NCBI GenBank assembly: GCA_041874755.1
Contig: CP102611.1
Span: forward strand, 1,364,001 to 1,428,000
Source of the DNA: Chitinibacter sp. SCUT-21
GTDB lineage: Bacteria > Pseudomonadota > Gammaproteobacteria > Burkholderiales > Chitinibacteraceae
Direction of reading: 5' to 3'
Length of the DNA stretch: 64,000 nucleotides
The notes below the pieces were generated by a model. The model ran no database searches. It was not told the DNA's origin and saw only the letters and a list, made by a program, of their open reading frames with translations. The position numbers and the translations under genes are program-made. The stretch's first letter is position 1; every line of letters begins with the position of its first letter. Below, piece by piece: positions 25,596 to 34,982 of the stretch.

Positions 25596-25643
25596 GGTAT
25601 ACCAGCATAATCAAAAATCAGCAAAGCCTACGAGTCTATACCC
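25595..25643. repeat. 49-bp dispersed inverted-repeat element, copy C (divergent)
   Basis: GGGTATA (25595-25601) and TATACCC (25637-25643) bound exactly 49 bp. A second inverted repeat AGCCTAC (25626-25632)/GTAGGCT (25648-25654) overlaps it. The element covers the convergent ends of the RND pump and the diguanylate cyclase genes and may act in 3' end formation. Confidence 0.5.
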
Positions 25644-26541
25644 CGAAGTAGGCTTGATTCCGGCCCGCGGCTTTAGCCGCGTACAGGGCTTGATCGGCAA
25701 TCTGCAATAAGGCCTCAACCGACACGCATTCTGGGTGCCAATGCGCAACACCCGCGCTGATCGTCACGATATGCCGTACGGGAGCTTTGGGATGTGGAAT
25801 GGCCAACTCGGCCACGCAGGCACATATCCGCTCTGCGATTTGGCGCGCTTTTTCAGGCGAGGTTTCAGCCAACAGGCAACAAAATTCTTCACCACCATAG
25901 CGCGCCATTAAATCATTGGGATGGCGCAATTCTGCCTTTACCGCCGCTGTCACACGCTGCAAACAAAAATCACCCGCAAGATGACCTTGGCTATCGTTAA
26001 AACGCTTAAAGTAATCGATATCGAGCAACACAATACCAAACGCTGCGATCTCAGGAAGCGCCCCTGCACGCTCAAACTCTTGCTGCAGACGCTCAAATAA
26101 ATAGCGACGATTGGCTAAGCCGGTTAGGCTATCTGTTTGAGCTAGAATGCGTAACTGATCTTTTGCATGCTTTAAAGCCAAATGATTCCGGACCCGTGCC
26201 CGAACAATCGCGGGATTAAAAGGCTTCACGATATAATCGACCGCACCCGCATCTAAACCACGGGTTTCCTGTGCTGGCGTCGCTAATGCGGTGATAAAGA
26301 TTACGGGAATTTCTGTGGTTTGCGGCCTCGATTTGAGAATGCGACATAACTCATAGCCATCCATATCGGGCATCATAATATCGAGCAAAATTAGATCAGG
26401 CGTTTGCCGTTCAATTTGCTGCAACGCTTGCTGCGCACTGAGAGCAAACCTCACATCATGTTGCTCGCCCAATAACTCGCCTAGCGCCTCAATAATCGCC
26501 ATCTGGTCGTCAACCACCAAAATATAGGGATCGAGATTCAT
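25636..26541 (-). CDS. Response regulator with diguanylate cyclase output (REC-GGEEF)
   Basis: Cytoplasmic protein of 301 residues. The receiver (1-120) has phosphoacceptor Asp54 in LLDIMMPDMDG; the GGDEF domain (about 130-300) has SLTGLANRR, DIDYFKRFND and the active GGEEF signature at 216-220. The allosteric I-site is not canonical: HPND precedes LMARYGGEEF, with Arg one residue early. It is the last gene of the signalling operon and overlaps the 979-residue hybrid kinase by 4 bases, so it is the natural phosphorelay target. Phosphorylation would switch on cyclic-di-GMP synthesis. Confidence 0.93.
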   Translation of the reverse strand: MNLDPYILVVDDQMAIIEALGELLGEQHDVRFALSAQQALQQIERQTPDLILLDIMMPDMDGYELCRILKSRPQTTEIPVIFITALATPAQETRGLDAGAVDYIVKPFNPAIVRARVRNHLALKHAKDQLRILAQTDSLTGLANRRYLFERLQQEFERAGALPEIAAFGIVLLDIDYFKRFNDSQGHLAGDFCLQRVTAAVKAELRHPNDLMARYGGEEFCCLLAETSPEKARQIAERICACVAELAIPHPKAPVRHIVTISAGVAHWHPECVSVEALLQIADQALYAAKAAGRNQAYFGV

Positions 26542-29477
26542 CGCTCTACCTCTGGCAACAATGGCATTAGCACAGCCAAAGCCGCGGGATAATCTAAACG
26601 ATCAAGCGCCCTTTCGATGGCTTGCAATCCCTTTTGGAGGCTTTCGTCCTCAACTAAATCAGACAGTAACTGCAATTTTGTTCTGGCCCTCAGGCTATTG
26701 GCGAGCAATGCCTCTTTTAACACTTTTGCAGGCCCCAACAATGCCTCCGGCAACATACACGTCGATGCGCTTGCTTCAGGACTTGGTGCGGTATCGTCTA
26801 ACAATGGACAAATGGCATCTAGCGCTGATTTCCAGTGGCGCTCCAGCAGTGAGGTATCTGGATAAACCCCTCCTTGACGGGCAAACGTATTTAGATCCTG
26901 CTCAAGCTGACTGGCGGCCTCATACAAGGCAGTTAGCCCTAACGTCCCAGCAACTCCGCGCAGCGCATGAACTCGCGCCATTAAATTGGGTACATCCGAG
27001 GTCTGGACAGATTCTGCCAGCTCAGCAAAAAGCGGTTTTTGCTCGGTAAAAAACTGCAAAAGCCAACGTTTAAACCTGGTCACATTATTATTCAAGCGTG
27101 GCAGTGCTTCTTGTACTGCTACGCCTGCCAATTCAAGTTTATTGAGAAATATACGATCAGCATCGTTGATTTTTACTCGTTGTCCGGCTTGTGCATTCGA
27201 TTGGGGCAGCAATTTTTTGCCGCGGCTTAGCTGATATTCTGCAGCGGCCAAAATCGCTTTGCGCAGCTTTGCAGGATCGATGGGTTTGAGTAAATAATCA
27301 TTCATGCCGGCCTTAACCCCAGCCTGCTGCTCTTCTGCGCCAGCATTCGCGGTCAGTGCGACGATATAAATATCAGGATCTCGCACATCAATGCCACGAT
27401 AAGTGCCTTGCCGAATAAAATGGGTTGCCTCAATGCCATCCATCACAGGCATGCGTCCATCCATTAACACCAAATCATAGTCTTGCTGCGATAAGGCAAT
27501 CAGTGCTTCATAGCCATTTTCGACCACATGTAAATTTAAACCTAACTCTTCCAACTGAGATCGCACTATGAGTTGATTGGTGGGAATATCCTCGGCATAA
27601 AGCACCTTCATTTGATATGGTATTAACTCTGGACCAGGCAATACCTCATCTATTTTTTCCAATAAATCTACCGGTTCTAAAGGCAAATCAACACGAAAGC
27701 AGGTACCTTCTCCAACCTGACTCGTTACGGCAATTGAGCCATGCATCAATTCAATCAATGCTCGACATATGGATAGCCCCAAGCCAGTTCCACCATATTT
27801 CCGTGTAGTCGAAGTATCAGCCTGCTCGAATTTATTGAAGAGGCGACCTAAGCTTTGCTCATCTAAACCGATGCCTGTATCCGTAATAGAAAATTTGATT
27901 TGCTCCCCATCTCGATATGCACTCAAACGAATACTGCCGGACTCAGTAAACTTAATCGCATTGCTAATCAGATTAAATAGAACTTGACGAATACGAGTAG
28001 GATCACCCAAGCAGCCTTCATGGGGTAAATAAGCGACATCCACAAGGAAAGTTAATCCTTTTTCTTGTGCTTTTGGTGCGAACAAAGCTGCAACCTGAGC
28101 AATTATTTTATGTAAATCAAATGGGATTAACTCCAAAGAAATTTTACCGGCCTCAATTTTGGAGGCATCTAACAGATCATTAATAATTTCAAGCAGCATT
28201 TCTGCATTTTCAAGACCAATTGAAACTTGCTCTTTCGCTAACGAGGGCAAGGTATTCTGAGCCAACGCTAAACGAAGCATACCTATCACACCAGACAATG
28301 GGGTTCGGATTTCGTGGCTAACCAAAGCCAAAAACTCACCCTTTGCTTTGTTCACCGCAATCAATGCTTCTTTTTCCGCAGCAAATTTGGCCAACTGCTG
28401 AATTCTTTCATTCTCTAAATTCTTTTTTTGCTGCTCCGCTTTTAAAAGTTTCAATCTAACTTCAGATCGATTCAATTTTTTTAGCGCCGCACTTTGCAAC
28501 TGAATTTTATGTCTTGCCATAGATAGAGCAGACTGTAATTCATAATATCGCTCAAACATGAGTAAGGCATTCTCATAATCGTCTAGCGCCTCGTAAATTT
28601 GCGAAGCTAATTGGCATATTTTTAATTCATGATGAATTGATTGATTATCAATAGAAAATCTATGTGCAAGTAAAATTAATTTTAAAGCTTCAGCATTCCT
28701 TCCCTTCGCAAAAAAAATCTTAGCCAAGCCCATGTGAGCCATAGCCATTGGCCATGAGTGGGCATGTTCCTCCGCAATACGTATACTCTCCTTGAATAAC
28801 TTTGAAGCCTTACTCCAATCCCCTAGGCCCGCATAAGAAAAGCCAAGATGCATGATAATCTCGCATACTTGTCCGATATCGGCGCGTCGACGATAAAAAG
28901 ATCTTGCTAGTTCTAAGTGATTAATTGCCTGCTCATATTTACCTAATTCATTATAATCGCTACCTAACCATAAATTTAGCATCATGGATAGAATTGGGTT
29001 ATCAAGTTCTTTAGCGAAATCCAAGGCAAATAGATGATGATGCAATGAATCATTATACAAACCAAAGTACAGATAGATGCCACCGACCCCTGTATATGCT
29101 TTTATGTAATGCTCAATCGACTGATGCTCCAGTGCAAGCTCTAAACAATCACTCCAATATTCCAAAGCCTCATCCAACTCACCGATTGCGTAGCATGCTT
29201 TACCTAAACACTCATAAACATCGAGCAACAATTCATCTTTTTTATTTCTCTCGCACACTTCATTTTTTAACCTTAATAGTAATTTTTTTGCCTCAGCAAA
29301 TCTCCCTAATTTTTCTAAAGCCTCGCCCTTTAAAAATGTTGCCAATTCAAGCTCAGAGGAAATTCCATCATTGATTGCAAATTGCAATAACTCTTCGGCC
29401 AAAATTAATGCCTGGTCAAAATTACGTATACGATATTGCTCTTGCTGCATGAGCTTTATATTAAATTCATCACGCAC
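26538..29477 (-). CDS. Soluble TPR hybrid histidine kinase with receiver and Hpt
   Basis: Large cytoplasmic kinase of 979 residues with no membrane segment. Residues about 15-320 are tetratricopeptide repeats, 320-380 a coiled coil. HisKA contains [10 protein letters not shown] (His388). HATPase (about 490-600) has NLISNAIKF, DTGIGLD and [10 protein letters not shown] receiver (about 622-745) has Asp673 in VLMDGRMPVMDG. A C-terminal Hpt domain (about 775-890) has RVHALRGVAGTLG (His837). This is a complete His-Asp-His module ready to pass phosphate to another receiver, most simply the REC-GGEEF protein encoded by the overlapping next gene. The 5' third looks more AT-rich than the rest. Confidence 0.92.
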   Translation of the reverse strand: MRDEFNIKLMQQEQYRIRNFDQALILAEELLQFAINDGISSELELATFLKGEALEKLGRFAEAKKLLLRLKNEVCERNKKDELLLDVYECLGKACYAIGELDEALEYWSDCLELALEHQSIEHYIKAYTGVGGIYLYFGLYNDSLHHHLFALDFAKELDNPILSMMLNLWLGSDYNELGKYEQAINHLELARSFYRRRADIGQVCEIIMHLGFSYAGLGDWSKASKLFKESIRIAEEHAHSWPMAMAHMGLAKIFFAKGRNAEALKLILLAHRFSIDNQSIHHELKICQLASQIYEALDDYENALLMFERYYELQSALSMARHKIQLQSAALKKLNRSEVRLKLLKAEQQKKNLENERIQQLAKFAAEKEALIAVNKAKGEFLALVSHEIRTPLSGVIGMLRLALAQNTLPSLAKEQVSIGLENAEMLLEIINDLLDASKIEAGKISLELIPFDLHKIIAQVAALFAPKAQEKGLTFLVDVAYLPHEGCLGDPTRIRQVLFNLISNAIKFTESGSIRLSAYRDGEQIKFSITDTGIGLDEQSLGRLFNKFEQADTSTTRKYGGTGLGLSICRALIELMHGSIAVTSQVGEGTCFRVDLPLEPVDLLEKIDEVLPGPELIPYQMKVLYAEDIPTNQLIVRSQLEELGLNLHVVENGYEALIALSQQDYDLVLMDGRMPVMDGIEATHFIRQGTYRGIDVRDPDIYIVALTANAGAEEQQAGVKAGMNDYLLKPIDPAKLRKAILAAAEYQLSRGKKLLPQSNAQAGQRVKINDADRIFLNKLELAGVAVQEALPRLNNNVTRFKRWLLQFFTEQKPLFAELAESVQTSDVPNLMARVHALRGVAGTLGLTALYEAASQLEQDLNTFARQGGVYPDTSLLERHWKSALDAICPLLDDTAPSPEASASTCMLPEALLGPAKVLKEALLANSLRARTKLQLLSDLVEDESLQKGLQAIERALDRLDYPAALAVLMPLLPEVER

Positions 29478-30921
29478 GATGCCAACCTCGTTCCGTCTTA
29501 TTTTTCAGCTGACTCAGGAGTGCTTCATCTACCATTAAAATCCTACTTCGTACCTGAACCTTGCCGACCCCCAAACGAGTCCACGGCTGCAATTCAATAC
29601 CTGCGCTGAGGGCCCGAGAGAATTCAAATAAACTTGCGCTGTTTGTGCCGGGATAGATATAGTAATGCCCAGCCGAAACGCATATCCACAAATCATGATT
29701 TGTGCAACGCTCATAAATAATCCTGGCAACTCTTTGCCATACTTCTTGGGTATCTTTAGCACGAACTATTAATTCCACTATACGATTCGCACACCATTTA
29801 TTACTGCATCGATCAATAAACTCCTTAAGTTTATGTTTTGTCATTCTAGTTCCAGACTGCTCAACTAGACGGTCACATTTTTTGAAATCATGCAAAATAT
29901 CATCCAGTTTATTCAACAAAAACTCTGCAATTTTTGACTGATCCACATTCAAACCACTAACGGGAGACGATGGTATTTTTTTAAGACAATCTAATGCTTC
30001 TTTCGAAAATCCTTTATTTTTGCAACACAAATATTTTAATCTTAGCCACTTCAATCGAAGTTGATCGTCTTCAAAAATTGAGAAGCAAGGTTCAACTTCT
30101 TCAACCACCAAACAAGCATGATCATAATCATTAATTTCTTGCAACAACTCCACGTATGATAATGATATGTCAATATAGGCCCAAAACATTTCAAAACGAT
30201 TTGCCATTAAACGACCAGATTCATAACACTGATTAGCATCATCTAGGCGATTAGTGCGCCAGAGGCATTCAGCCTTATTTTTACAAATCTGCACAATCCA
30301 AGTGATATCAGAGTACAAAATAACTTCAATTTCAACACGATCAATAATAGACAGTGCACCATCGTAATCACCAACGGCAATAAGAACACTCGAGAAATGA
30401 ATACCCGATTTCGCCAATAGCTTTTTATTATCAAGCATCTCTATCATCGAAAAGCAATTTTCAAACAAGCGAAGAGAATCTCTACTCAAGCCAGCTTGAT
30501 GATACAAATATGCCAAATTAATATATGCCTCGATAGCACAATCTAAATTATCCTGCTCAATCGAAAGCAAAAAGCACGCCGACCAGCTTTTATATGCATC
30601 AATCAATTCTGTTAATCTTTCATGGACAATACCTTTCCACAACCATCCCAATGCAAGATGAGCACAATCTCTATTTTGCTGACAAACTTTAATACCTTTT
30701 TTGATCTTAATTTGTGCTTCTTCTACTTCCCCAGAAATGAGAAGGCTACGCCCATGTAAAATATATGCATATCCAAGTAACGGGTGTTTTGCTCTTAAAC
30801 AAATACTTAATAAATCAACACATGCGTTTTGTTGAACCTGATTAGACTTCCAATAGCCCAACTCAATCTGACCTAGCAAGTTTGCCACTTCTGAATCCAG
30901 ATCTAAGCTAAGCTCAGTCAT
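29470..30921 (-). CDS. TPR protein with eroded GGDEF-like C-terminus, paralogue 2
   Basis: Predicted soluble protein of 483 residues. About residues 1-330 are helical TPR-type repeats. The last 120 or so resemble the second half of a GGDEF domain: an HDLW block, then AGHYY at 417-421 where GGDEF would be, then a YPGT strand, a helix, and PW before a beta strand. The catalytic signature is lost and the first half of the domain (LTGLxNR, DxDxFK) is not recognisable, so it should not make cyclic-di-GMP. It aligns in register with the neighbour at 30918-32372, for example SDITWIVQ against GDMTWVVE. It overlaps both flanking genes by 4-8 bases. The function is unknown; a scaffold or partner-sensing role in the relay is possible. 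Confidence 0.7.
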   Translation of the reverse strand: MTELSLDLDSEVANLLGQIELGYWKSNQVQQNACVDLLSICLRAKHPLLGYAYILHGRSLLISGEVEEAQIKIKKGIKVCQQNRDCAHLALGWLWKGIVHERLTELIDAYKSWSACFLLSIEQDNLDCAIEAYINLAYLYHQAGLSRDSLRLFENCFSMIEMLDNKKLLAKSGIHFSSVLIAVGDYDGALSIIDRVEIEVILYSDITWIVQICKNKAECLWRTNRLDDANQCYESGRLMANRFEMFWAYIDISLSYVELLQEINDYDHACLVVEEVEPCFSIFEDDQLRLKWLRLKYLCCKNKGFSKEALDCLKKIPSSPVSGLNVDQSKIAEFLLNKLDDILHDFKKCDRLVEQSGTRMTKHKLKEFIDRCSNKWCANRIVELIVRAKDTQEVWQRVARIIYERCTNHDLWICVSAGHYYIYPGTNSASLFEFSRALSAGIELQPWTRLGVGKVQVRSRILMVDEALLSQLKNKTERGWHRA

Positions 30922-32372
30922 ACAACCACCTCTAAACGCGCAACAAGATCATTTATTTCTAAAATAGAAAAACTAACCGTAGGTGCAGTACAGCGATGCC
31001 AAGACCAAGGGAAACAATCGATGCATGACTTCAGTTGATTCGCCATAGCTGACAGCGCATCACTTTTAATTGAAGGGAAAAGAACAAATTCATTCCCTGC
31101 CAATTGAAACCAAATTTCATCATGAACACATGCTTCTTGGAAAAGTGCCTTTACCTTCCTTTCAACATACACATTCTGAACTACAGGTGCATCAACCTTA
31201 AAAACTAGTATTTTTTCACTACGTGAACGACTCGCAATACACTCTCCAATATCTTTATTTTTATAACCACACTTAGGATACCCACCTAAATAATTTAAAA
31301 TATCATCTCTTTTTTCCTTCACACCTGCCATCAGGCGATTAAATTTTTTCAATCTAAACTTATTATTTTTTTCAACAAAGAAAACATCTCCATCTATCAG
31401 CTGCATTTTTAAATCACTTAAATCTTTACTTAGCTTCAGCGCACCTTTGAAATCTCCAACCGCTCCACTCAATTTTATTTTTATTTCATTTAACTTTATC
31501 AGACAATAATAATCTTTATACCGACTCAGGTCAGGCTCAGCACATTCCAACAATTCTCGCGCAACTGCACCTAATCCTTTATTAGCTAAATATTCCGCAT
31601 AAAATACACTCAGAATCGCACAAGCCCAATTTAGTTTCTGTTGCCTCGACAATGCAAGCATCGCACAGAAATATAACTCCGCCTCTTCCATACGATTTAA
31701 GCCCTGGTAACATACGGCCGCTATTTTCCCAGCCTCAACCACCCAAGTCATATCGCCATACGCCAAAATACAACTTTCAGCCTCATAAATAATATCCAAT
31801 GCCAATTGGTATTCTTTTTTATCAATCAGCACACCTGCAATAAAAATACTTCCCTTTGCTATCAAACGCTGACTATCAACAACTTTGGCTAGATAAAAAC
31901 CCAACTTCAAGAGTTCGTTCGCTTCCTCATATTTTTCGTACAACGCATACAGGGCCCCCAAATACAAATAAGATTCAATAATTTCATCAAAACTCATCAC
32001 CTCAACAGATAAGTCTAATGAAATTACAAAATCTTCGACGGCCTTCAAATATCGTTTCAAACTAAAATATGCAATTCCTCTACGAAGATACAACTCCGGC
32101 AAATAGAAAAATTCTTCTGTTAATTTTGAAAGTTTGATTGCGCGATTAAAATAACGAATTGACTGCTGAAACCGTCCGTAAGCCCATAGCGTTTTGCCAT
32201 AGATCATTGTGATACGGATTTCTAGCGCAGGGGGAAGCTGAGAAGATAGCGGCAAAAGCTCAAGAGATGCTTGATAAGCCTGCTCAAGATCACCAAGCAA
32301 CCAGAGCTCAATTTGCTCTAGTTGTTGCTCAATATCTTGCAGCTCTAAATGGGAATACAGCACAGGCAGCAC
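30918..32372 (-). CDS. TPR protein with eroded GGDEF-like C-terminus, paralogue 1
   Basis: Predicted soluble protein of 484 residues, paralogous to the next gene. TPR-like helices fill about 1-330 (LYLRRGIAYFSLKRYLKAVEDF, trimmed here, is one repeat). The C-terminal about 100 residues retain more GGDEF character: KILVFKVDA at the position of the DxDxFK strand, HDEIW, AGNEF at 425-429 in place of GGDEF, then VLFP, FPWSW and TVSFSI. The first glycine of the signature is Ala and the aspartate Asn, so catalysis is unlikely though nucleotide or protein binding is conceivable. It ends with ATGA overlap onto its paralogue and starts 71 bases after the membrane kinase. The gene is visibly AT-rich, which suggests relaxed selection or separate origin. 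Confidence 0.7.
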   Translation of the reverse strand: MLPVLYSHLELQDIEQQLEQIELWLLGDLEQAYQASLELLPLSSQLPPALEIRITMIYGKTLWAYGRFQQSIRYFNRAIKLSKLTEEFFYLPELYLRRGIAYFSLKRYLKAVEDFVISLDLSVEVMSFDEIIESYLYLGALYALYEKYEEANELLKLGFYLAKVVDSQRLIAKGSIFIAGVLIDKKEYQLALDIIYEAESCILAYGDMTWVVEAGKIAAVCYQGLNRMEEAELYFCAMLALSRQQKLNWACAILSVFYAEYLANKGLGAVARELLECAEPDLSRYKDYYCLIKLNEIKIKLSGAVGDFKGALKLSKDLSDLKMQLIDGDVFFVEKNNKFRLKKFNRLMAGVKEKRDDILNYLGGYPKCGYKNKDIGECIASRSRSEKILVFKVDAPVVQNVYVERKVKALFQEACVHDEIWFQLAGNEFVLFPSIKSDALSAMANQLKSCIDCFPWSWHRCTAPTVSFSILEINDLVARLEVVV

Positions 32373-32443
32373 CTAGAAAGACAGTGTCTTCTTTATAGCT
32401 GCCGAGGGTTTCTAGTACAAATGCGAAACAGGAAAACAAAAAT

Positions 32444-34189
32444 CTATTTCAGCAGGGCGGCAATTTCAGCATGCAGCAACTCAGGTCGAATGGGCTTGGT
32501 GGTAAATCCACTCATTCCTGCGGCAAAGCAAGCCTGCCGATCTGATTCCATTGCATTTGCGGTTAGGGCCAATATAGGGATACTAGGGTTGAATTTTCGG
32601 ATACAACGCGTAGCTTCTAAACCATCCAGCACTGGCATTTGTACATCCATCACCAGTAAATCAAAATGCTGCTGACTTGCAGCCTCTACTGCTAACTGCC
32701 CATTTTCTACGCAGCTCACTTTGTGACCTGCCGACTCGAGTATTTTAGCTGCAACCAAGCGATTGGTCGGATTGTCTTCAGCGAGTAAGATCCGTAGTGA
32801 ATTGTTAACTAGCTTGGTCGCGTCTTCCTTCGCGGTCACTTTTGCTTGGACTGCCAGCAATGGAATTGCAAACGAAAAAATCGTCCCGCGCCCCAGCTCA
32901 GAACGAACCACAAGCTCCCCCCCCAGTAAAGCGACGAGTTTTTTCGCGATTGTCAGTCCCAAACCAGTGCCACCATATTGGCGGGACAAAGAACCATCCG
33001 CTTGCACAAAAGCATCAAAAATCGCATTTAAGCGCTCTTTAGCAATCCCAATCCCAGTATCTCTTACCTCAAAGTGCACAAAGGAATTGCAAATTGAGCA
33101 CTCGAGCTGCACTCCTCCTTGCTCGGTAAACTTGATGGCATTACCGACCAAATTCACTAGCACTTGCTGCAAATGAACAGCATCACCGTAAAACAACCAA
33201 GGTCTAATGGCCGGATATTTAAAATTCAGATCGATTCTTTTTTGTCTAGCGGCAATTTCGAACATTTGTTCAGTGCTACTCAGGATATTAGCTAGATCAA
33301 ATTCCTTTTCATCACGGCTAATTTGCCCCGACTCAATCTTTGAAATATCCAGCACATCATTAACTAGAGCCAATAGCAAGTCGGACGAGGACTGAATAAC
33401 TGCCACATCATGCCGCTGCGACGAATTTAATTCTGACTGGGCCAACAAATGCGCCATACCCACAATACCATTCATTGGGGTTCGAATCTCATGACTTACA
33501 TTGGCGATAAATTCACTTTTTGCCCGGCTCGCAGCTTCGGCACTATTGCGAGCCTGTTGTAAATCAATAATCAACTGGCTTTGCTCGACCTGAAGCAAAA
33601 TACTCTCAACAATCGCCGTGTGATAGTTACGCACCCCTTTGATCACCACCACGATAAACATCGCACACATGAGGGCCAGAATCATATCGAGCGATCCACC
33701 CGCAATTAAGGCTGCGGGGATAACCGGAATTAAAATCAACAAGGCAAAATTGCGAAAACCTCGATAATGCGCCCCCAAAATAGGCACCGCACCGGAGACC
33801 ACGCCCGACAAAACAAAGGCGGTAAAAATACGCAGCACTTCATTCGATGAAATGAGCAATACAAAGCCGCCAACGCCCCAAACCAAGCCAGAAGTATTGA
33901 CCCCTAGCTCAAACCGGCGATTCCAAGCTGGGTAATCCACTGGTAGCTGAGACTGCTTCATGTAACGGTAGGCGGTATAAATCCGCCACAAAGCAACAGC
34001 CCAAGTGGAAGCGAGCCAATAAAATAAAATGTTGCTTGGTATGTGATTGCGATATGTAAGCGCCAAAGCCAGCGCGATCAAAATGCAGATAATTTGGCCA
34101 GAAAATGAATTGCGATAGACTAATTGCGTGATGCGTTCGACTACCACAGGGTGAGCGGTTTTGCTCACAAATTCATTCGTCCATTTCAT
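32444..34189 (-). CDS. Membrane hybrid histidine kinase with receiver, no Hpt
   Basis: Inner-membrane sensor kinase of 581 residues. ATG at 34189 is chosen over GTG 34195 because AGGA lies 7 bases upstream. Five or six membrane helices occupy about residues 30-190, a MASE-like intramembrane sensor without a large periplasmic loop. HisKA has [11 protein letters not shown] (His233), HATPase has [16 protein letters not shown] and YGGTGLGLT, and the receiver has Asp515 in [12 protein letters not shown]. It lacks an Hpt domain, so phosphate could go through the Hpt of the 979-residue kinase made from the same operon. It starts 16 bases after the motD-like gene. Confidence 0.92.
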
Positions 34190-34205
34190 TCGCACATCCT
34201 GACTT

Positions 34206-34982
34206 TTACTCCGTTTGAATCACAGCCACTTCATCTTGGTTATCGGCCAAGATATTGAGCGTGACGCGACGATTACGCGCACGGCTTTCAAGTGTGTCGT
34301 TGGGGCCGATTGGGCGATATTCAGCATAACCAATCGCCACCATACGCTGCGGGGCAACACCAACACTTTGAAACAGGCGCACAACGCTGGCGGCACGGGC
34401 GGCAGACAACTCCCAATTGCTCGGAAAAATGCCTGCGCGAATCGGTTGATTATCGGTATGACCTTCAATTTGGATTAAGTTGTCGGAATTTTTGACCCGC
34501 TCAGCAATCGCAGCGAGAGCATCGATAGATTCAGGCTGTAGTTCGGCACGGCCGGTATCGAACAAAATTGAATCGCTGATTTCTACCGCTATCCCACGCT
34601 TCGATTGCGTGACCTTAACTTTACCTTGATCAATCAACTCCCCCAGTGAACTACGAAAATCGCCCGCCATGCTTTGCATTTTCTTAGTTTGCTCTTGATA
34701 CTTGCCAGCATCTGGCATCATCGTAGGCGCAGGAATCACGATTAATTTGGGCGGAGCACCAGGCATAGTTTGGCGATCTGGTTGGAGCAATTCGGCAGAC
34801 TGCTTAGGTTGTTTAAAGGCGTCGACCAAGGAGTTGGACAGCACTTTATACTTTCCCTCGTTAATCGATGAAATGGCATACATGACGACAAAAAAAGCAA
34901 ACAAGAGCGTAATAAAATCGGCGTACGACACCAACCAGCGCTCATGATTATCGTGCTCTTCAGGACGTTTTCTGCGTGCCAT
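34206..34982 (-). CDS. motD: MotB-type flagellar stator protein, MotD-like
   Basis: Stator subunit of 258 residues. The N-terminus [27 protein letters not shown] (trimmed family pattern) has the single helix with the proton-carrying aspartate in SYADF, and the C-terminal half is an OmpA-like peptidoglycan-binding domain with [19 protein letters not shown] and RARNRRVTL. It resembles MotD of the second Pseudomonas stator MotCD. No motA/motC partner is adjacent; upstream is sppA. A partner must be encoded elsewhere. It may be co-transcribed with the hybrid kinase 16 bases downstream. Confidence 0.88.

Follow-up and report, generated by a model that had tools for sequence, protein, structure and literature searches.

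A conserved four-gene unit of two TPR proteins, a TPR hybrid kinase and a diguanylate cyclase in Chitinibacteraceae

We analysed a window of 64,000 nucleotides from Chitinibacter sp. SCUT-21 (GenBank assembly GCA_041874755.1, contig CP102611.1, positions 1,364,001 to 1,428,000), whose genome is a single 3.45 Mb contig. Within it, four consecutive genes encode two tetratricopeptide repeat (TPR) proteins, TPR1 and TPR2, a hybrid histidine kinase with a TPR array of its own, and a diguanylate cyclase that joins a receiver (REC) domain to a GGDEF domain. These four genes are a real, conserved signalling unit, and the membrane hybrid kinase encoded next to them (HK1) lies outside it. With slightly better than even confidence, we propose that they form one cytoplasmic unit in which a TPR switch of the RcbA/RcbB type acts on the hybrid kinase, whose histidine phosphotransfer (Hpt) domain would in turn phosphorylate the PleD/WspR-like cyclase.

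Gene order and relay residues

The genes lie on the reverse strand in the order TPR1 (positions 30918-32372 of the window), TPR2 (29470-30921), TPR hybrid kinase (26538-29477) and REC-GGDEF cyclase (25636-26541), with overlaps of 4, 8 and 4 bases at the three junctions. The first three are adjacent and all encode TPR-bearing proteins. By Pfam, TPR1 and TPR2 contain TPR-type repeats and nothing else, and the cyclase contains REC and GGDEF. The kinase combines TPR, HisKA, HATPase, REC and Hpt domains (Hpt at residues 806-889, 26811-27062) with a helical C-terminal tail, and has no hydrophobic segment above the threshold used. A preliminary description of the locus, which counted HK1 as a fifth gene, had placed all five on one strand, the last four with overlaps of 4-8 bases; the coordinates and Pfam domains bear out this layout.

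We searched 43 genomes of the family for TPR1 orthologues (E 1e-45 or better) and found them in 15: six Chitinibacter, seven Deefgea and two Chitinilyticum. The order TPR1-TPR2-TPR kinase-REC-GGDEF, on one strand, recurs in all 15 and is therefore beyond chance; the association of the TPR pair with the kinases, on which the preliminary description had staked its reading, thus holds for the TPR hybrid kinase and the cyclase throughout. In C. bivalviorum (G005), the cyclase begins at base 4 of a contig whose end bears the kinase, and their adjacency assumes that this contig is circular. In G011, the cyclase is overlaid by an opposite reading frame and was placed by further searches of the locus. 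Both Chitinilyticum genomes carry TPR1 and TPR2 fused into a single protein (965 and 966 amino acids), the halves of which cluster in a tree with TPR1 (support 99/94) and, weakly, with TPR2 (61/61).

At the cut-offs used, TPR1 turned up in no genome outside this family. A search for TPR1 at the level of the taxonomic order found it in 5 of 300 genomes, all from the same family (E 1e-15), a class-level search of 369 genomes returned only the SCUT-21 genome (E 1e-12), and a homologue search with TPR2 found only itself among the matches listed. A scan of genome contigs recovered six loci, all from Chitinibacter or Deefgea; it missed Chitinilyticum, and its sensitivity is therefore limited.

The His and Asp residues of the kinase-REC-Hpt-REC relay that had been suggested for the locus are all kept: H388 (HisKA), D673 (REC) and H837 (Hpt) in 14 of 14 aligned kinases, and D54 in the REC domain and GGEEF at residue 216 in 15 of 15 cyclases. 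The C. bivalviorum kinase was excluded from the alignment because its frame ends after the HATPase domain (L042:9709-12672; 605 amino acids), with the REC-Hpt part in another frame that runs to the contig end; this break could be a frameshift, a split gene or a sequencing error. The best PDB matches of the cyclase are PleD (E ~1e-60) and WspR. Its I-site arginine stands at D-4 instead of D-3 in all 15 sequences, which leaves no canonical RxxD five residues before GGEEF, and it is therefore doubtful that the product inhibits the enzyme at the canonical position. The SCUT-21 genome has 43 GGDEF matches in its 3.45 Mb, all over the curated cut-off.

TPR1 and TPR2 and their relatives

TPR1 and TPR2 are paralogues (E 1.4e-26; profile-profile E 4e-60) and the fastest-changing proteins of the set. 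Their mean identities within Chitinibacter are 43% and 46% (15 pairs each), compared with 67% for the kinase, 74% for the cyclase (10 pairs each) and 85% for the MotB-type protein encoded upstream of HK1 (6 pairs). Both are under purifying selection, with omega (the ratio of non-synonymous to synonymous substitution rates) of 0.03-0.06 for TPR1 and 0.05-0.10 for TPR2 in five close pairs; synonymous divergence is saturated in G017-G023. Given such values and the intact frames in the loci read, we reject the reading that these are decaying genes. The TPR2 frame of L049 is shorter (467 amino acids, with a stop 116 bases before the kinase); the other loci read have intact frames.

The predicted models of the two proteins (mean pLDDT, a per-residue confidence score, of 82 and 85) consist of a long TPR array, with about eight TPR-like helical pairs in TPR1, followed by a C-terminal domain at residues 372-484 of TPR1 (30921-31259) and 362-483 of TPR2 (29473-29838). 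NCBIfam holds no family for either protein and gave one sub-threshold match to MamA. The earlier view of the two paralogues as novel TPR components needs correcting, as both have relatives: they carry a putative dead GGDEF domain and belong to a TPR family that they share with RcbA/RcbB pairs, in which TPR1 would be RcbA-like.

On moderate evidence, the C-terminal domain is probably a trimmed, catalytically dead GGDEF domain. In the models of both proteins, its roughly 110 residues follow the order strand-helix-strand-strand-helix-strand, which is that of the cyclase core minus one helix; for TPR1 the prediction reads as strand-helix-hairpin-helix-strand. Profile-profile comparison with 30 GGDEF domains of the same genome gave probabilities of 88.8 for TPR1 (E 2.5e-6), 84.7 for TPR2 (E 6.7e-6) and 91.1 for the two combined, and the same C-terminal profiles scored only 0.1-3.3 against REC (two sets), HATPase, HisKA and Hpt. 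Hidden Markov models (HMMs) of the two domains, run over 4668 six-frame reading frames (a redundant set in which several loci overlap), found 78 and 77 matches and none in reversed frames. Seventy-five of each belong to the TPR1/TPR2 family, and the remainder fall inside the GGDEF domains of TPR-GGDEF proteins, two genes per profile, one of them counted twice for the TPR1 HMM.

Several results weigh against this assignment. Just two TPR-GGDEF genes were matched per profile, although 69 frames carry GGDEF; the Pfam GGDEF profile recognized none of 15 family members; a PDB sequence search with the C-terminal alignment found no GGDEF; and a profile restricted to 14 REC-GGDEF orthologues gave probabilities of 0.4 and 0.05. 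Structure searches with the full models (Foldseek and VIA, with a second look that covers model residues 3-324) returned lists filled by TPR folds, with no GGDEF chain among the matches listed, and do not bear on the domain itself.

The catalytic signature GG[DE]EF is absent from TPR1 and TPR2, the nearest sequence being AGNEF in the TPR1 of the window. There is no arginine at D-3 in 12 of 12 TPR2 rows and no RxxD before W421 in 20 TPR1 rows, and on this basis we reject sensing of cyclic di-GMP (c-di-GMP) through an I-site in these proteins. A C. bivalviorum protein (L101:3357-4925) joins a TPR array to a GGDEF domain in which RYYGQQF replaces the signature; Pfam still recognizes this domain (36.5 bits, E 5.4e-9). 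Its sequence makes it a possible intermediate towards the C-terminal domain of TPR1 and TPR2; the gene overlaps the start of a downstream TPR-GGDEF gene, the two together spanning L101:3357-6541.

The TPR arrays are related to those of Chitinibacter TPR/TPR-GGDEF pairs, a kind described in Vibrio vulnificus as RcbA/RcbB. There, the TPR region of RcbB represses its own cyclase and RcbA relieves the repression using both of its parts; RcbA also contacts RcbB through the TPR regions of the two proteins and tethers it to the flagellar pole (PMC12282931). According to the same authors, homologues of the pair are present in Chitinibacter, Deefgea and further members of the Chitinibacteraceae, C. bivalviorum having two copies of rcbAB and four of rcbBA (PMC12282931). 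In the SCUT-21 and C. bivalviorum genomes we read nine TPR-GGDEF genes. Beside most of them lies a gene for a TPR-only protein of 337-399 amino acids; with the exception of L101, these neighbours lack the C-terminal domain of TPR1 and TPR2. A profile built from the TPR regions of TPR-GGDEF proteins matches that of the kinase at E 2e-48. With the profiles of TPR/TPR-GGDEF pairs, the kinase TPR scored E 2e-44 and 1e-40, and TPR1 scored E 9e-30 and 7e-29. In a tree (unrooted and with long branches), the kinase arrays form one clade (100/100) and TPR1 with TPR2 another (100/99). Elsewhere in the SCUT-21 genome (L093:10716-16754), a TPR-GGDEF and a TPR-only gene overlap by 4 bases, and the same strand carries, about 0.9 kb further on, a gene for a TPR-GAF-histidine kinase.

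HK1, motB and the upstream boundary

HK1 (32444-34195, reverse strand) is a membrane hybrid kinase with HisKA, HATPase and REC domains by Pfam, and no Hpt domain; its phospho-sites, H235 and D517, are kept in nine of nine sequences. The gene had been recognized before, with its boundary at 34189; this position is an in-frame ATG that lies six bases within the gene, whose GTG start is at 34195. The next gene upstream, 10 bases away and likewise on the reverse strand, is motB (34206-34982), which by Pfam encodes a MotB-type stator protein and which the preliminary description had not mentioned; downstream, 71 bases separate HK1 from TPR1.

HK1 adjoins the four-gene set in 9 of the 15 genomes (6/6 Chitinibacter and 3/7 Deefgea). 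It is missing beside the set in the other four Deefgea and in both Chitinilyticum, and the motB-TPR1 gap of those four Deefgea (399-543 bases) holds no HK1 remnant. Matches to the HK1 sensor domain occur in 36 of the 43 family genomes. In eight of them (G001-G004 and G039-G042), an HK1-like match directly follows motB on the same strand, with 29-32% identity and frames of 584-704 amino acids; here orthology is assigned by position, not by a tree, and from the sensor-domain match only. These eight genomes have no TPR1 or TPR2 orthologue and 0-3 weak TPR matches each. The gene motB lies upstream of the set in 13 of 15 genomes, and the set is away from motB in both Chitinilyticum.

A promoter-like element, TTGTAC and TATAAA separated by 17 bases, lies in the gap between HK1 and TPR1 (32392-32420, reverse strand). 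This gap measures 52-85 bases in the six Chitinibacter genomes and contains CTATAAA in all of them; TTGTGA stands 17 bases before TATAAA in four, TTGTAC does so in SCUT-21, and G009 has no such hexamer. The distance from the end of the element to the start of TPR1 is 28 bases in four genomes, 19 in G000 and 20 in G009. TPR1 was read from the GTG at 32372, and an alternative in-frame GTG at 32363 would match the spacing of the four relatives. Together, these features suggest a separate promoter for TPR1 onward. Two scan results count against it: the element was not in the list from a consensus scan, which gave 6 sites versus 20 +/- 4 in shuffled sequence, and no terminator-like site was found in the gap, so that read-through from motB-HK1 is possible.

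We assign HK1 to motB because it adjoins the set in only nine genomes, occurs beside motB in eight genomes without TPR1 or TPR2 and is separated from TPR1 by the promoter-like element. On these observations we reject HK1 as a core member, and motB, judged by position, is likely to be its ancestral partner. The preliminary description had made HK1 a fifth operon member that shares the single Hpt domain of the TPR kinase, a view that these observations do not support. The Hpt domain is single locally, but the genome has 21 Hpt matches, 20 of them over the curated cut-off and several within one long frame.

Other features of the region are recorded here. In the four Deefgea without HK1, the motB-TPR1 gap contains a 15-base palindrome, GAATTGTnACAATTC, about 75 bases upstream of TPR1 (L044:6719, L045:6891, L047:11440 and L049:6822); the SCUT-21 genome has no copy. 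No MotA-type gene neighbours motB, and the five MotA/ExbB matches of the genome lie elsewhere. Upstream of motB are SppA-, Rieske-, HAD- and RluC-like genes, labels that come from reading the sequences. The host is a freshwater bacterium.

Proposed mechanism, alternatives and known systems

We hypothesize that the kinase is restrained or positioned by its own TPR array, and that TPR1 and TPR2 bind this array through their own, related ones and determine kinase activity, much as RcbA does for RcbB in Vibrio. Phosphate would then pass from H388 to D673, to H837 and on to D54 of the REC-GGDEF protein, which, once phosphorylated, would dimerize and make c-di-GMP; a canonical I-site that could stop this synthesis is missing. 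In TPR1 and TPR2, the C-terminal domains may be dead GGDEF domains retained for protein contacts, and HK1 would be a separate, motB-linked kinase. A bolder version, in which the pair of TPR and dead GGDEF proteins governs the histidine kinase and the dead GGDEF domains also pair with the cyclase GGDEF, thereby controlling both phosphate flow and dimerization, seems to us rather unlikely.

Some considerations weigh against the proposed switch. The contacts, the direction of control, the phosphotransfer and the signal are all inferred. TPR1 and TPR2 resemble one another more than either resembles the kinase TPR, so that a match between partners is not shown by sequence. The likeness to RcbA/RcbB comes from comparison with Chitinibacter pairs of that architecture. 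Finally, a class search with the TPR-GGDEF TPR profile (369 genomes, E 1e-18) matched five genomes, SCUT-21 included, and found no Vibrio-like RcbA/RcbB pair at that cut-off; a plasmid search for a Vibrio-like RcbB TPR gave no match.

Other explanations of the locus account for part of the evidence. A five-gene branched relay, in which HK1 and the TPR kinase both feed one Hpt domain and HK1 belongs to the operon, would explain why HK1 has a REC but no Hpt domain and why it lies on the same strand, 71 bases away with no terminator-like site between, in an arrangement that all six Chitinibacter and three of seven Deefgea share. We consider it improbable, given the absence of HK1 from that position in four Deefgea and both Chitinilyticum, the occurrence of HK1-like genes next to motB in eight genomes without TPR1 and TPR2, the promoter-like element in the gap and the 20 curated Hpt matches in the genome. 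Equally improbable is a mainly positional role, in which TPR1 and TPR2 keep the kinase and cyclase near the flagellum at the cell pole and leave activity unchanged: motB does lie upstream in 13 of 15 genomes, but the set stands away from it in both Chitinilyticum, and Vibrio RcbA changes activity too (PMC12282931).

A Rap-like action would dispense with a GGDEF relic in the C-terminal domain. Here the TPR1 and TPR2 arrays would dock onto a peptide or onto a receiver domain, either that of the kinase or that of the cyclase, and alter phosphate flow. Foldseek and VIA rank Rap and NprR, including a RapH-Spo0F entry, among the better TPR matches, TPR2 has a weak RNPP_C match (E 1.7e-4), and the rapid change of TPR1 and TPR2 would fit such a role. 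LGN and other generic TPR scaffolds, however, head the same structure lists, and the nearer sequence relatives are TPR/TPR-GGDEF proteins; we therefore regard this explanation as unlikely.

If the RcbA/RcbB-type switch does operate here, it is a portable regulatory part that fits either a cyclase or a histidine kinase, and decayed GGDEF domains are a candidate origin for the functionally uncharacterized C-terminal regions of such TPR partners. The four genes are a compact system free of other parts, suited to tests in Escherichia coli of how TPR partners control a cytoplasmic hybrid kinase.

Among known systems, the cyclase resembles the PleD/WspR class in its REC domain with the phosphorylatable Asp and its GGEEF signature. 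PleD has two REC domains, whereas the cyclase here has one; it differs from PleD and WspR also in its out-of-register I-site arginine (15/15) and in that it would be fed by the TPR hybrid kinase through the Hpt domain of that kinase. Rap/RNPP proteins may share the fold of the TPR array with TPR1 and TPR2, with Z scores similar to those of generic TPR scaffolds; the C-terminal domain is of another kind, and the TPR likeness is generic. A parallel for that domain may be BcsE, whose degenerate GGDEF has a trimmed fold, has lost catalysis and binds a partner protein independently of c-di-GMP (PMC7439463). Like BcsE and PelD, which have a trimmed GGDEF fold without catalysis, the models of TPR1 and TPR2 miss one core helix, but BcsE and PelD keep the I-site and TPR1 and TPR2 have no RxxD.

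The nearest systems are RcbA/RcbB of V. vulnificus and vpa1477-gefB of V. parahaemolyticus, which share with the present set adjacent genes, cytoplasmic TPR proteins with structured C-terminal regions and a c-di-GMP output. We found no account of a four-gene set of TPR proteins, hybrid kinase and cyclase in the open PMC literature. RcbB joins its TPR array to a catalytic GGDEF domain, whereas no protein of the four-gene set does so; here, the TPR-bearing partner is the Hpt-containing hybrid kinase, and a REC-GGDEF protein apart from it serves as the cyclase. By this analogy, a TPR switch on a TPR-GGDEF cyclase is of a kind already known from Vibrio, and what would be new is the joining of an RcbA/RcbB-type switch to a phosphorelay.

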